Assembly (NCBI GenBank): GCA_947174835.1
Contig: CAMWKM010000007.1
Coordinates: forward strand, 1 to 43,755
DNA: 43,755 nt
Direction: 5' to 3'
Origin: an uncultured Prevotella sp.
Lineage (GTDB): Bacteria > Bacteroidota > Bacteroidia > Bacteroidales > Bacteroidaceae
A program made the position numbers and the translations under genes. Below are positions 37,435 through 41,220 of this stretch, one piece after another. Position 1 is the stretch's first letter; every line of letters starts with the position of its first letter. The notes beneath the pieces are model-generated. The model was not told the DNA's origin and ran no database searches. It saw nothing but the letters and a program-made list of their open reading frames with translations.

Positions 37435-38022
37435 CTATTTATATTTCATGTACGCTTTCAGGAGCTTTTCGTCATATTTGTTTTTGGTATATTGAGGACC
37501 ATTGTAGTGCCTTGCGAACTCTGTCCAGTTAAGTGTACGTAGGAATTTAGACCATCCGTTGGTTTTCAAGAAAGTAGTAAAGAGATCAAGCTGTCTGCCT
37601 TCATTGAGGCTCATCTCTTCCACAAACTCTTGAGCAGTCCGACAGCCACAGGCTGCATAGTTGAATCCCATAATCTGAAACAATCCCCAGCTTGCAGAGC
37701 AGATGGCTGCTTCCTCATGAATAGTACGTGCTTTTTCTAAAAGGGCATATTCTTCCATAGCACTCTTGTAATATCGCAGTTCCCATTTAGGAAATAGAAT
37801 ATCCTCATTGCCTTTTACATAGTTTTCTGGGTTCAATCCTTTCTTCTTTAGTTGATTCCAGAAAATATGACCTTCGAAAAGAATGGCGGGACGATTTGGC
37901 GCAACGAAGCCACCTCGGTTTCCTGTCTCTACTTTCTGTACTGCTTTGATGGTGGCAACTTCAATACCCAGTGCATCTGCACATCGTTTGAAGTCCTCTT
38001 CTGTCAATTTAATAGTTTGCAT
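37435..38022 (-). CDS. N-acetylmuramidase (DUF3380-like, phage endolysin-type)
   Basis: 195 aa; VQKVETGNRGGFVAPNRPAILFEGHIFWNQLKKKGLNPENY..., AAICSASWGLFQIMGFNYAACG; no N-terminal signal peptide visible. Confidence 0.85.
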   Translation of the reverse strand: MQTIKLTEEDFKRCADALGIEVATIKAVQKVETGNRGGFVAPNRPAILFEGHIFWNQLKKKGLNPENYVKGNEDILFPKWELRYYKSAMEEYALLEKARTIHEEAAICSASWGLFQIMGFNYAACGCRTAQEFVEEMSLNEGRQLDLFTTFLKTNGWSKFLRTLNWTEFARHYNGPQYTKNKYDEKLLKAYMKYK

Positions 38023-38031
38023 ATTGGATCT

Positions 38032-38277
38032 TTATTTATTGAATTTACTTGCATTTTCAACTCTTAGTTGGGCTTCTTCAACCTTAGCTAAGATTTTCAG
38101 AGCTTTTTCCGACTTATTTTTGTCTATATTGAGTCTTAGTCTGCATGTGGGACAAAGCAAGTTGTTAGCAAATAGAATTTGCTGAATAGAAGCCGGAATG
38201 AGGTTCCCACAGCGTGGGCATTGTATGCCGGGCGGCTGCTGTTCCTGTTGTTGTATTTTTTGTTTTGGTGGGATCAT
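38032..38277 (-). CDS. small zinc-ribbon-like protein
   Basis: 81 aa; IQCPRCGNLIPASIQQILFANNLLCPTCRLRL (two CPxC knuckles) followed by a charged helical tail; 9-bp gap to the muramidase gene. Confidence 0.72.
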   Translation of the reverse strand: MIPPKQKIQQQEQQPPGIQCPRCGNLIPASIQQILFANNLLCPTCRLRLNIDKNKSEKALKILAKVEEAQLRVENASKFNK

Positions 38278-38288
38278 TATTGAGATAG

Positions 38289-38921
38289 TTATTCTGTTGC
38301 TGTCTTCTTTTTCTGTTTTGTAGAATTTTCTGTCGCATCCTTTATTTGAAGGTTATTAGTAGTCAGGCTTAATAAGTTCGACAATCCTCCGGGCATATCG
38401 GCCTGTTGCATTTTCACCTTCACTTTCATATTGGCTGTAAGTCCTTGTCTTACCTTTCGATCCGTACTGTTTTCAATACGGGAAGCAGCCATTGACGCTC
38501 TTAGTATGACACCTTCTGATGTCCTGTTGTTGTTATTGTCATCGTTGTTGTTATTACTTCTCTTGAGGGAGAATGTGGAATTTTCATCTGTGCTGACCGC
38601 ATCAATAATTTGGATATCGAAGTCGAAATCCGCTTCTTTCACTTGAAGCAGAGGCAACGGCACCAGTGTCATCAGTGGAATGCTGACATGCTGTTGCTTG
38701 GGAACTCCATAATCCTGTATGGTATAGGTGAACTCCAACATTCGGAGTTTTCCTGCCTTACCTGTCTTGGGGTCATAGGACTCGAAGGCTAACTCATAAA
38801 GATAACTCAGATATCTGCGTGTAGATATACTATCTGCATCAATTGTTGCAACCAAAGGACCTGAGATTAGATCCTTCAGGTCCATGATTTGTGTACTTAC
38901 CTTATTGTCTGTTGTTTCCAT
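38289..38921 (-). CDS. DUF2589-like protein B (short paralog, poly-Asn linker)
   Basis: 210 aa; VSIPLMTLVPLPLLQVKEADFDFDIQI and MKVKVKMQQADMPGGLSNLLSLTTNNLQI align with the second DUF2589-like protein. Confidence 0.75.
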   Translation of the reverse strand: METTDNKVSTQIMDLKDLISGPLVATIDADSISTRRYLSYLYELAFESYDPKTGKAGKLRMLEFTYTIQDYGVPKQQHVSIPLMTLVPLPLLQVKEADFDFDIQIIDAVSTDENSTFSLKRSNNNNDDNNNNRTSEGVILRASMAASRIENSTDRKVRQGLTANMKVKVKMQQADMPGGLSNLLSLTTNNLQIKDATENSTKQKKKTATE

Positions 38922-38932
38922 AAGCAGAAGAT

Positions 38933-39712
38933 TTATTCATCCTTTAAAAACATATTTATATTGTTTGGTGACACCTTTAGACGCAAAGTGTGGACGCTGC
39001 CATTTGGCAGGGCGGCAAGTTCCTCAGAGGAAACACATACGTCTACGGACGGCATGAGTTGCTTGCGTTTAACATTCATATCTTTTAATAAAGTTGATAG
39101 ATTCTGCTTTACGGCTGTTCTCATAGTCGTCTTTACTTGTTCGTCATGGTCATTGCTGACATTTCTATCAAGCACTTCCCGTACCTCATTGTGGTTGAGC
39201 AAAGCCTCTTCGCCAACATTCATAACGATCTGCAACAAGGTTTCCTCCTCGATAGAGCCGTCTTCTTTGATGATAGTTGCATACTCTTTTTGTAGGGCCT
39301 TCCGAATCTTATGGCTCAGAAAAGCACTGAAGCCATTCCGTTTCTCCATGTCATTCTCCAGTGTATCCAAAGGTTCTGCATCTTCAGTGTATTTGTCTGG
39401 CAAAGCATTCTTGAAAGCAGGAACGGCATTGTCAAGAAGCAGCCGGGCACAAACTTTCGAAATGTTCCTTATGACATCTTGGAGAGCTGGGGGATTAATT
39501 TCATACAGTTCCATTTCTGGTAATGAATCGGTGATACCGTATTGGATGCATAACTCCATCTCACCCAGGGCTACGGCAGGCAATGCGAACTCGTTTAGTT
39601 GTCCGTCTGAGCTATACATATCTTTCAATGTCATAGCATACAAGTTTGCCTGATGCTGGGCTGAAACCATATCTCGAAGGATAGAACTGATAATAGTGCT
39701 TAACTGGGCCAT
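38933..39712 (-). CDS. Uncharacterised 259-aa protein between two DUF2589-like genes
   Basis: MAQLSTIISSILRDMVSAQHQANLYAMTLKDMYSSDGQLNEFALPAVALGEMELCIQYG...; no family recognised; operonic spacing. Confidence 0.7.
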   Translation of the reverse strand: MAQLSTIISSILRDMVSAQHQANLYAMTLKDMYSSDGQLNEFALPAVALGEMELCIQYGITDSLPEMELYEINPPALQDVIRNISKVCARLLLDNAVPAFKNALPDKYTEDAEPLDTLENDMEKRNGFSAFLSHKIRKALQKEYATIIKEDGSIEEETLLQIVMNVGEEALLNHNEVREVLDRNVSNDHDEQVKTTMRTAVKQNLSTLLKDMNVKRKQLMPSVDVCVSSEELAALPNGSVHTLRLKVSPNNINMFLKDE

Positions 39713-39735
39713 AAGTTTAGATTAAATGATACGTT

Positions 39736-40596
39736 TTATTCGTGATCTGTTGTTGATTTTTTGGAAGAAGTAACTTCCACTGTCAGAGTCTTGTTGCCGG
39801 CAGTTACGGTGTATTGGCCAGTGGTCTTCAGTTCAAAGACCATGCGGTTGCTGTCTTTGGTACCGGTGACTTCGGTATCCTTATCCTTCACCTTGATGGC
39901 CTCTGGCTCAAACAGTCCTTTAGGATTCTTGTAGGTAGCGATGAGTTTCACAGGCTGATCATCATCAGTCAGCACAAAATTGGTCTCGCTGATCTCAAGG
40001 GTTCCGTCGGGATCGCTCACGTCGAGAGCACTGCCAAGCAGTTCGAGAACCTTTGCCAAGCCGGCCGGCATACTGTCCTGTGCAGCTTTCACGGCCACGT
40101 CCATGGTGTATTCTACACTGTATTTCGAATTCTGAGTAGCCTTGGAGTCTTTCTTTGAAGAATAGTTGGCTGTCATGTTGGCCCTCATGCTGAACGGTCC
40201 CCAACCTAACTTGGAAGAGAAACCTCCACCGACATTAAGCGACGAGGATGAGTTTGTCTTAGAAACGGAGGATGACGAAGCTGAGATGTTTGCCTTGAAG
40301 CTGATATCAATGTCTTGTATCGCGATATACGGTATAGGTACGATTGTCAACAGGGGAACATTCAGTTGAGCCATGCGGCCGTTCTGTATAAACTCGAAGG
40401 TTACATTCACAGCTTCTTTCTTACCGGTTTCCGGATCTGTGCTCAGTCCAACCTCCTGAATAAACTGCCATGATGTCTGTGCAGCCATAGCCTGCGCTTC
40501 GATACATGCTTGCAATGGTGCTCCGATGATAGAGCCGAATGGAATCGCCTGCAACGCATTGGTTGCTACTTGCGATGGATTTGCATCAATTTCCAT
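39736..40596 (-). CDS. DUF2589-like protein A with C-terminal Ig-like extension
   Basis: 286 aa; LQAIPFGSIIGAPLQACIEAQAMAAQTSWQFIQEVG..., LNVPLLTIVPIPYIAIQDIDISFKANISA, MDVAVKAAQDSMPAGLAKVLELLGSAL; C-terminal beta-rich tail ending TGQYTVTAGNKTLTVEVTS. Confidence 0.8.
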   Translation of the reverse strand: MEIDANPSQVATNALQAIPFGSIIGAPLQACIEAQAMAAQTSWQFIQEVGLSTDPETGKKEAVNVTFEFIQNGRMAQLNVPLLTIVPIPYIAIQDIDISFKANISASSSSVSKTNSSSSLNVGGGFSSKLGWGPFSMRANMTANYSSKKDSKATQNSKYSVEYTMDVAVKAAQDSMPAGLAKVLELLGSALDVSDPDGTLEISETNFVLTDDDQPVKLIATYKNPKGLFEPEAIKVKDKDTEVTGTKDSNRMVFELKTTGQYTVTAGNKTLTVEVTSSKKSTTDHE

Positions 40597-40659
40597 AATT
40601 TGTCTTTTTTTAGTTGTTAATAATGTTACTGTTATCGAGCCGGACTCTTATTTCGACGG

Positions 40660-40667
40660 CAAAGGTA
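40660..40667 (-). promoter_or_regulatory. Bacteroidota -7 element (TACCTTTG) of the DUF2589 operon
   Basis: Minus-strand TAnnTTTG match in the 129-bp gap, about 63 bp before the DUF2589-A ATG. Confidence 0.5.
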
Positions 40668-40694
40668 GTGTAAAGAGGCAGAACTTTTGATATG

Positions 40695-40721
40695 CATCCA
40701 TTGTATGACCTTTCCATCCAC
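40695..40721. promoter_or_regulatory. Candidate LytTR operator upstream of DUF2589 operon: CATCCAT/CATCCAC direct repeat, 20-bp period
   Basis: CATCCA at 40695-40700 and 40715-40720, 28 bp upstream of the -7 box in the transcription direction. Confidence 0.35.
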
Positions 40722-40725
40722 CCGA

Positions 40726-41124
40726 TCATACGTTTTTGCCTTCTCTGACCCTTTTCCTTGAACCAATAAGCACAAACCTGCTCTTGACCACATTCCGGTA
40801 TTCTCGTCCGATGTTGATGTCCCTCCCGTCAATCATGCGCACAAGGTTTCCGACATACCGTGATATATGTCCCAGATTAACTACAAAAGAGCGATGAATA
40901 CGGATAAACAGTGTCGGTGGGAAGTATTCTGCAACCTCACACATAGGCACAGAGACTGTCATCTTGCTTTCGTCGGCGAGATGGATGTCACAATAATTAC
41001 TTGCTGCTTCTAAATAAAGCACATCGTATATGGATATTCTGCGATATCCAAAGCCATCCATAATGAATACATGTATATCTTTGCAATATACACTTTCTTC
41101 CTTTACCATCTGTTGTGTCTTCAT
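40726..41124 (-). CDS. stand-alone LytTR-family DNA-binding regulator
   Basis: 132 aa; ISIYDVLYLEAASNYCDIHLADESKMTVSVPMCEVAEYFPPTLFIRIHRSFVVNLGHISR; no receiver or TM domain. Confidence 0.88.
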   Translation of the reverse strand: MKTQQMVKEESVYCKDIHVFIMDGFGYRRISIYDVLYLEAASNYCDIHLADESKMTVSVPMCEVAEYFPPTLFIRIHRSFVVNLGHISRYVGNLVRMIDGRDINIGREYRNVVKSRFVLIGSRKRVREGKNV

Positions 41125-41189: not shown

Positions 41190-41220
41190 TATCCACTAAG
41201 ATTTGTCTTTTATCCACCAA
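41190..41220. promoter_or_regulatory. Candidate LytTR autoregulatory operator: TATCCACTAA / TATCCACCAA direct repeat, 21-bp period
   Basis: TATCCAC at 41190-41196 and 41211-41217; an inverted partial copy TTAGTGGA lies at 41146-41153. Confidence 0.45.

Follow-up and report, generated by a model that had tools for sequence, protein, structure and literature searches.

LytTR proteins bind paired 9-bp direct repeats lying 10-13 bp apart and mostly activate transcription from positions upstream of the -35 element (PMC11347149). Among phage endolysins of the DUF3380/PF11860 family, the enzyme of phage AP3 (AP3gp15, PDB 5nm7) lost 99.4% of its activity in a Glu101Ala mutant (PMC5674055). The DUF2589 family (PF11655) has no described function or system, and a full-text search of 5.39 million open papers yields a single passing mention of it, in a transcriptome remark on Archaeoglobus AF0414-AF0417 (PMC3949148). 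Here we describe a locus of a gut bacterium, an uncultured Prevotella sp. (assembly GCA_947174835.1, contig CAMWKM010000007.1) in which proteins of these three families are encoded side by side. The window, i.e., the whole stretch of DNA analyzed (43,755 nucleotides), is a single entire contig (C7) of a 2.68-Mb draft genome. The six minus-strand genes of the locus, encoding LytTR, DUF2589-A, ORPH, DUF2589-B, a Zn ribbon protein and a PF11860 muramidase, very probably constitute a real and conserved module under LytTR control. As far as the searches reached, the locus is undescribed and no known system has this core.

The 132-aa stand-alone LytTR DNA-binding regulator (40726..41124; PF04397 E=9.2e-14; PDB 3d6w E=1.4e-4) is followed, after 129 bp, by five genes separated by gaps of 23, 11, 11, and 9 bp. 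DUF2589-A (39736..40596, 286 aa; PF11655 E=2.3e-27), which joins a DUF2589 domain to a C-terminal Ig-like domain, and DUF2589-B (38289..38921, 210 aa; PF11655 E=2.4e-18) are both members of the family, with scores of 67.4 and 96.7 bits between them against a curated cut-off of 23 bits. Between the two lies ORPH (38933..39712), a conserved orphan core protein of 259 aa with no family match. The run ends with a Zn-ribbon-like protein of 81 aa carrying two CxxC motifs (38032..38277; CPRC...CPTC) and an endolysin-type muramidase of 195 aa (37435..38022; PF11860 E=5.7e-64, 216 bits), which has neither a signal peptide nor an N-terminal peptidoglycan-binding domain. The coordinates, strand and 9-23 bp gaps given in the original prediction, made from the sequence alone, all agree with the open reading frame (ORF) positions, and its assignment of both paralogues to PF11655 and of the muramidase to PF11860 holds above the Pfam cut-offs.

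Each of the closest described systems is matched only in part. As in other LytTR regulators, a stand-alone LytTR domain is combined with paired direct repeats of 20-21 bp period upstream of a promoter. Unlike in LytTR regulatory systems (LRS), there is no adjacent inhibitory membrane protein, the neighbors of lytTR in the window being DUF2589-A and a DUF3943 protein gene, so that the locus does not class as an LRS; its repeat, TGGAYR, is also its own. The muramidase has the catalytic domain and the catalytic Glu of the phage endolysins (AP3gp15 and those of PDB entries 7q4s and 7rum), and in most cassettes their N-terminal peptidoglycan-binding domain as well, but it is accompanied by DUF2589 genes instead of a holin or spanin, and its best identity to a genuine phage copy is ~46%. 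Finally, the pairing of an exchangeable hydrolase with a small neighboring protein that is exported in some cases, hereafter X, recalls effector-immunity pairs and the toxin cargo of secretion systems; here, however, there is no secretion apparatus, and X is missing from some active-looking copies.

The Conserved Core

Relatives were collected by running a DUF2589-A alignment against 85,488 species genomes, which gave 138 hits, 80 of which were examined; cassette genes were called mechanically with our own ORF caller and iterative hidden Markov model searches. Many of the relatives are draft metagenome assemblies, and thus the host given for a cassette may be wrong through misbinning. The order DUF2589-A, ORPH, DUF2589-B, Zn ribbon recurs in dozens of genomes, which answers in the affirmative the question, raised with the original prediction, of whether the genes co-occur elsewhere. 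Within the Bacteroidales it is found in Prevotella/Segatella, Bacteroides fragilis, Parabacteroides, Dysgonomonas, and Alistipes, and beyond them in Akkermansia, Flavobacterium, Crocinitomix, and Reichenbachiella, in the cyanobacteria Okeania, Crocosphaera, Anabaena, and Nostoc, as well as in SAR324, Chlorobaculum, and Acetivibrio. A BLAST search of plasmids also revealed a DUF2589 gene, an ORPH-sized gene and a second DUF2589 gene, ordered as in the core, on a Fulvitalea plasmid. The invariant unit is DUF2589-A/ORPH/DUF2589-B/Zn ribbon.

Cassette genes were counted in the 41 simple cassettes that are followed by 3.5 kb or more of sequence, close relatives included. A Zn ribbon homologue follows DUF2589-B in 39 of the 41; a LytTR gene is present in 25/41, the muramidase in 21/41 and X in 17/41. 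The cassette proteins diverge in a correlated manner, whichever two are compared (Mantel p<=0.001, r 0.38-0.89), and the mean distance on 63 shared loci was least for DUF2589-A (0.51), intermediate for DUF2589-B (0.62) and greatest for ORPH (0.74). A larger form, seen in P. multiformis, Porphyromonas sp. COT-290, and several rumen genomes, has no muramidase and comprises the core together with ~5-9 DUF2589 genes around it. In L066, L069, L073, and L140-L152 (P. multiformis and others), tandem DUF2589 paralogues surround ORPH and the Zn ribbon, and in several of these clusters DUF6734 is a neighbor or a fusion partner.

Exchangeable Enzymes

The position after the Zn ribbon is not reserved for a muramidase. 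In Flavobacterium it holds a trypsin-like protease (Trypsin_2, 6.7e-8), and in Crocinitomix a GH25 lysozyme (E=3e-30) is the second gene after the Zn ribbon. DUF6734 (6e-15) terminates several large clusters and is fused to DUF2589 in L140, L144, and L146, while further fusions join DUF2589 to Big_1 or Big_2. The slot 5' of DUF2589-A is variable too: it is empty in most cassettes, an HExxH-motif gene occupies it in L110, and two S. copri-type cassettes that are 96.9% identical over 3,905 bp part exactly at the start of DUF2589-A. In S. copri Indica, a 192-aa ADP-ribosyltransferase-like gene (L062:4893-5468, minus strand) lies 2 bp before DUF2589-A, where the other, 97% identical cassette has different DNA; its Scabin-like match (E=8.7e-4) is below the Pfam cut-off.

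A few single loci deserve mention as well. In L072 (1471-2733, minus strand) DUF2589 is fused to EF-Tu domains 2 and 3, with no match to the GTPase domain. A protein of 172-177 aa with conserved-looking Cys residues follows the DUF2589 genes in L080, L085, L088, and L092; its papain/C39-like look (E=0.036, for L085 only) would make it a possible further variable-slot enzyme. In L081 (10016-19996, G042) an ABC-toxin-A-like gene, encoding a protein of more than 2,700 aa with ABC_toxin_N and neuraminidase-like domains, comes directly after two DUF2589 genes and a gene of 137 aa. Short repeated ORFs resembling a CRISPR array lie downstream of the core in Acetivibrio (L141:14054-18674).

The Muramidase and Its Partner X

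The window muramidase matches PDB entries 7q4s, 5nm7, and 7rum. Its Glu32 (codon 37927..37929, minus strand), the predicted catalytic residue, aligns with Glu101 of AP3gp15, a position read from the aligned ranges, and is invariant among the cassette muramidases. A full-length PF11860 gene occurs in only 7 of 150 same-genus genomes; five of the seven fall in the nine DUF2589-bearing genomes, all of them within the cassette (Fisher p=4e-6 over the 150 genomes), and a sixth (G390), counted as outside, lies at the end of a contig beside the Zn ribbon of a cassette. Hence the muramidase, taken at first as a part of the locus, is indeed associated with DUF2589, but it is not a fixed component, being exchanged elsewhere.

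Most of the cassette muramidases carry the N-terminal peptidoglycan-binding domain and have X before them, between the Zn ribbon and the enzyme. The window muramidase keeps the first six residues and then runs straight into the catalytic domain. The L169 enzyme is likewise short, and the L070/L100 frame, with neither X nor the peptidoglycan-binding domain, is truncated. On sequence comparison the window copy, which lacks both X and this domain, is a derived variant. No signal-peptide-like or transmembrane-like stretch was found in any cassette muramidase. As for X, a cationic amphipathic N-terminus is seen in 71% of its copies vs. 1.3% of 1,497 other genes, and homologues with signal-peptide-like or lipobox-like starts are found on either side of the muramidase. 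These features would fit an envelope-located partner or an immunity protein, though several copies of the cassette are without X.

The Predicted LytTR Switch

Promoter comparison with close relatives suggested the repeat TGGAYR-N14/15-TGGAYR. The 43.7-kb window has two copies of it, both oriented towards the operon: as TGGATA-N15-TGGATA upstream of lytTR (putative operator 1, 41190..41216, minus strand) and as TGGATG-N14-TGGATG upstream of DUF2589-A (putative operator 2, 40695..40720, minus strand). The repeat period at the two promoters is 20/21 bp, or about two helical turns, and the LytTR domain is thus accompanied by pairs of direct repeats that may serve as its operators. The Bacteroidota -7 motif is TAnnTTTG (PMC7366714). 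A box of this kind, TACCTTTG (40660..40667, minus strand), lies 27 bp downstream of operator 2 and is kept as TANCTTTG in the aligned LytTR-bearing relatives.

Two or more matches were present in 4 of 100 shuffled windows, so that the count by itself is weak and it is the position of the repeats that matters. Promoter DNA of 40 loci (29 kb in all) contained 14 forward matches vs. 0 for the reversed control; once near-duplicates were removed, ~9 matches remained, including those at L106, L111, and L123, loci which had not been used in deriving the pattern. The pattern of operator 1 also precedes lytTR in L070/L100, L098, L106-L108, L111, and L123, and operator 2 is conserved in L064, L098, and L070/L100. 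Control of the operon by LytTR, as proposed in the original prediction, is therefore supported by putative operators before both lytTR and DUF2589-A that are kept in relatives.

Families and Models of the Core Proteins

Searches of Pfam, NCBIfam, PHROGs, and PADLOC placed neither ORPH nor the 81-aa two-CxxC protein in a family at a score above cut-off. The AlphaFold model of ORPH, whose identity ranges from 13 to 67% across 53 homologues, consists of a long N-terminal helix, beta strands and an inserted helical bundle (predicted local distance difference test, pLDDT, 82). Fold identification with Foldseek gave no match at E<=0.001, with none for ORPH in either PDB or BFVD, and the best match of the ORPH profile to PDB sequences reached only E>=0.066. 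The helix-then-strand pattern of ORPH is like that of DUF2589, yet the hhalign probability is just 8%. DUF2589 itself has no convincing match to a solved structure among PDB sequences. The predicted Ig-like domain of DUF2589-A (~residues 195-282; 39751..40014, minus strand) is modeled well, residues ~201-280 having block means of 85-93 and Ig-like Foldseek matches. The core proteins among the cassette proteins scanned have no signal peptides and are mostly without transmembrane-like segments.

Genomic Setting and Horizontal Movement

DUF2589 is present in 16/296 genomes of the order and 19/399 of the genus (~5%), often as adjacent pairs. One flank of the window locus comprises a mur/fts cell-division cluster, an AMP-ligase-like gene, prfB, and CYTH (PF01928); the AMP-ligase-like gene and prfB are what we take them to be from their sequence. 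On the other side a DUF3943 protein gene (Pfam) adjoins lytTR. Both flanks had been described as conserved core genes. This is true of CYTH, present in 37/40 same-genus genomes; it does not apply to the right flank, since DUF3943 is found in just 16/40 and does not adjoin CYTH in the compared relatives. As the genes after CYTH also vary among these relatives, no clean empty site could be defined. The cassette is patchy, has different flanks after CYTH in relatives and occupies a different site in, e.g., G319. This patchy, site-independent occurrence indicates that it moves horizontally; no mobility genes were identified at the cassette.

A Possible Scaffold With Exchangeable Cargo

Given that the first four genes keep the same order in distant phyla beside different enzymes, they may well encode an undescribed assembly with an exchangeable enzyme. 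We tentatively prefer to see in the locus a cytoplasmic DUF2589 scaffold, moving horizontally and controlled by LytTR, that carries an exchangeable enzyme as cargo, here a muramidase. We consider this reading possible rather than probable; what leads us to it is a constant core with a variable enzyme beside it or fused to it. LytTR would bind the TGGAYR pairs that precede lytTR and DUF2589-A and would activate both genes. The operon would then yield a cytoplasmic assembly with DUF2589-A, ORPH, DUF2589-B, and the Zn ribbon as invariant subunits, carrying the exchangeable enzyme, in this case a lysozyme-like muramidase that may usually be accompanied by the small membrane-seeking or exported X. 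Once the switch is thrown, the enzyme could reach peptidoglycan as a lytic payload, either in the cell's own wall on lysis or in another cell. The original prediction is borne out in part; the regulated lysis, release, envelope remodelling, and gating of the enzyme that it envisaged are hypothetical. Our proposal is built on the genes observed and their fixed order, on the correlated divergence of their products, on the repeats of the putative operators, on an intact catalytic residue, and on enzyme exchange and fusion. An extended form of it, in which the core is an unrecognized, widespread bacterial nanostructure whose interchangeable enzymes are delivered to or released at other cells, is rather doubtful in our view. 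In this form the nanostructure would be under LytTR control in Bacteroidota and Akkermansia, and its cargo would be muramidase, lysozyme, protease, DUF6734, and possibly ADP-ribosyltransferase-like and ABC-toxin-like proteins.

A number of points weigh against the scaffold proposal. The Mantel correlation of protein divergence stands without species-tree control. The window and its close relatives supplied part of the material from which the TGGAYR pattern was derived, and over the whole genome the pattern is at chance level (19 vs. 19 reversed), so that it marks no other regulon there. AlphaFold performs poorly on the DUF2589 domain (mean pLDDT 58, residues 88-180 below 50). None of the core proteins, nor the muramidase, bears an evident export signal, and there is thus no evident route to peptidoglycan. 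X is absent not only from the window cassette but from several others. Many variable neighbors have no family, and several matches (GDPD, Scabin-like) are below the Pfam cut-offs. Lastly, in Acetivibrio (L141) no same-strand gene lies downstream of the core and some other cores are without an enzyme as well, hence the core may have a job without cargo.

Among the alternatives is a self-lysis or release module, in which the muramidase would be the producer's own cytoplasmic endolysin and LytTR would trigger lysis of a subpopulation. The enzyme is of the phage-endolysin type and has no signal peptide, X bears a cationic amphipathic N-terminal helix, and the window muramidase looks active in the absence of X, a state that is easier to understand if X is not an obligatory immunity factor. 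On the other hand, no holin or spanin is present, most homologous modules outside Bacteroidales lack the endolysin, and elsewhere the muramidase is replaced by a trypsin-like protease or DUF6734, neither of which would lyse the cell wall. We consider self-lysis unlikely, and equally so its variant in which the DUF2589 proteins, helped by X, permeabilize the inner membrane or are themselves the released particle. By analogy with the lytic enzymes of flagella and secretion systems, the muramidase might instead open peptidoglycan locally for an envelope-spanning DUF2589 structure, as the peptidoglycan-binding domain of most cassette muramidases, the GH25 enzyme in a similar place and the exported or lipoprotein-like X homologues would allow. 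The module, however, has no membrane-spanning, secretin-like, or ATPase component, and the lack of signal peptides and scarcity of transmembrane-like segments in the core also make such a machine quite improbable.

An anti-phage, abortive-infection-like system, whose enzyme would kill the infected cell, could account for the patchy distribution in ~5% of genomes, and there are suggestive neighbors: in SAR324 the core module is directly followed by the Wadjet JetA3/B3/C3 genes (JetABC; L166:12117-18584), and L090 adjoins a type IIG restriction enzyme. Nevertheless, none of the six window proteins has a match in PADLOC-DB and no defence family recurs in more than two members among 107 neighbors of 35 loci; a defence island was rejected, as these are single neighbors with no recurrence, and we judge a defensive role very unlikely. 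That the locus is a remnant of a prophage, tailocin, or secretion module might be suspected because the muramidase family is common in phages and a 4-kb faecal virome scaffold bears the cassette. Yet the scanned window genes include no holin, terminase, integrase, or secretion gene. Neither these genes nor the recurring flanks of the 35 loci supplied the holin, spanin, or structural genes of a phage lysis cassette or prophage, or the sheath, tube, baseplate, or ATPase genes of a type VI secretion system (T6SS), extracellular contractile injection system (eCIS), or tailocin. No phage or secretion family recurs among the 107 neighbors, the core has no PHROG match, among 50,697 phage records that one unverified scaffold alone contains DUF2589-A and ORPH, and 2.9 million viral contigs gave three matches, weak or at a boundary. 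These phage and viral searches and flank scans led us to rule out a prophage/tailocin/T6SS/eCIS remnant as extremely improbable; in agreement with the original prediction, the locus is no obvious prophage, its core is practically absent from phage collections, and its five genes together match no known prophage, tailocin, or secretion module.

The few virus-labeled sequences call for separate comment. The faecal scaffold (MT839761.1, L096), from a human sample and labeled bacteriophage, was not accepted as viral evidence: it is an unverified sequence of 4,044 bp that contains the cassette only, and 3,905 bp of it match the cassette of S. copri Indica at 96.9% identity. Its ends lie near the borders of the cassette, so that the assembly may have broken around a mobile element of this kind. 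Likewise, L177 (IMG/VR) was rejected as viral, its cassette having DUF2589-B cut short beside an integrase-like gene, i.e., a host flank. L178 (9962-11961), on a 194-kb IMG/VR contig, has two DUF2589 genes, the first ~30% identical to DUF2589-A, and could be a true phage-borne DUF2589.

Conclusion

In at least seven bacterial groups the four genes of the core stand in the same order, linked with a switch and with enzymes that can replace one another. The carriers of the core include common gut bacteria such as Segatella copri, Bacteroides fragilis, and Akkermansia muciniphila, and the operators and the enzyme make the module directly testable in cultured strains. If an enzyme-carrying assembly is indeed encoded, it would represent a new kind of cargo-bearing structure. 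Even under another mechanism, DUF2589 would pass from an isolated domain to a defined operon with named partners.

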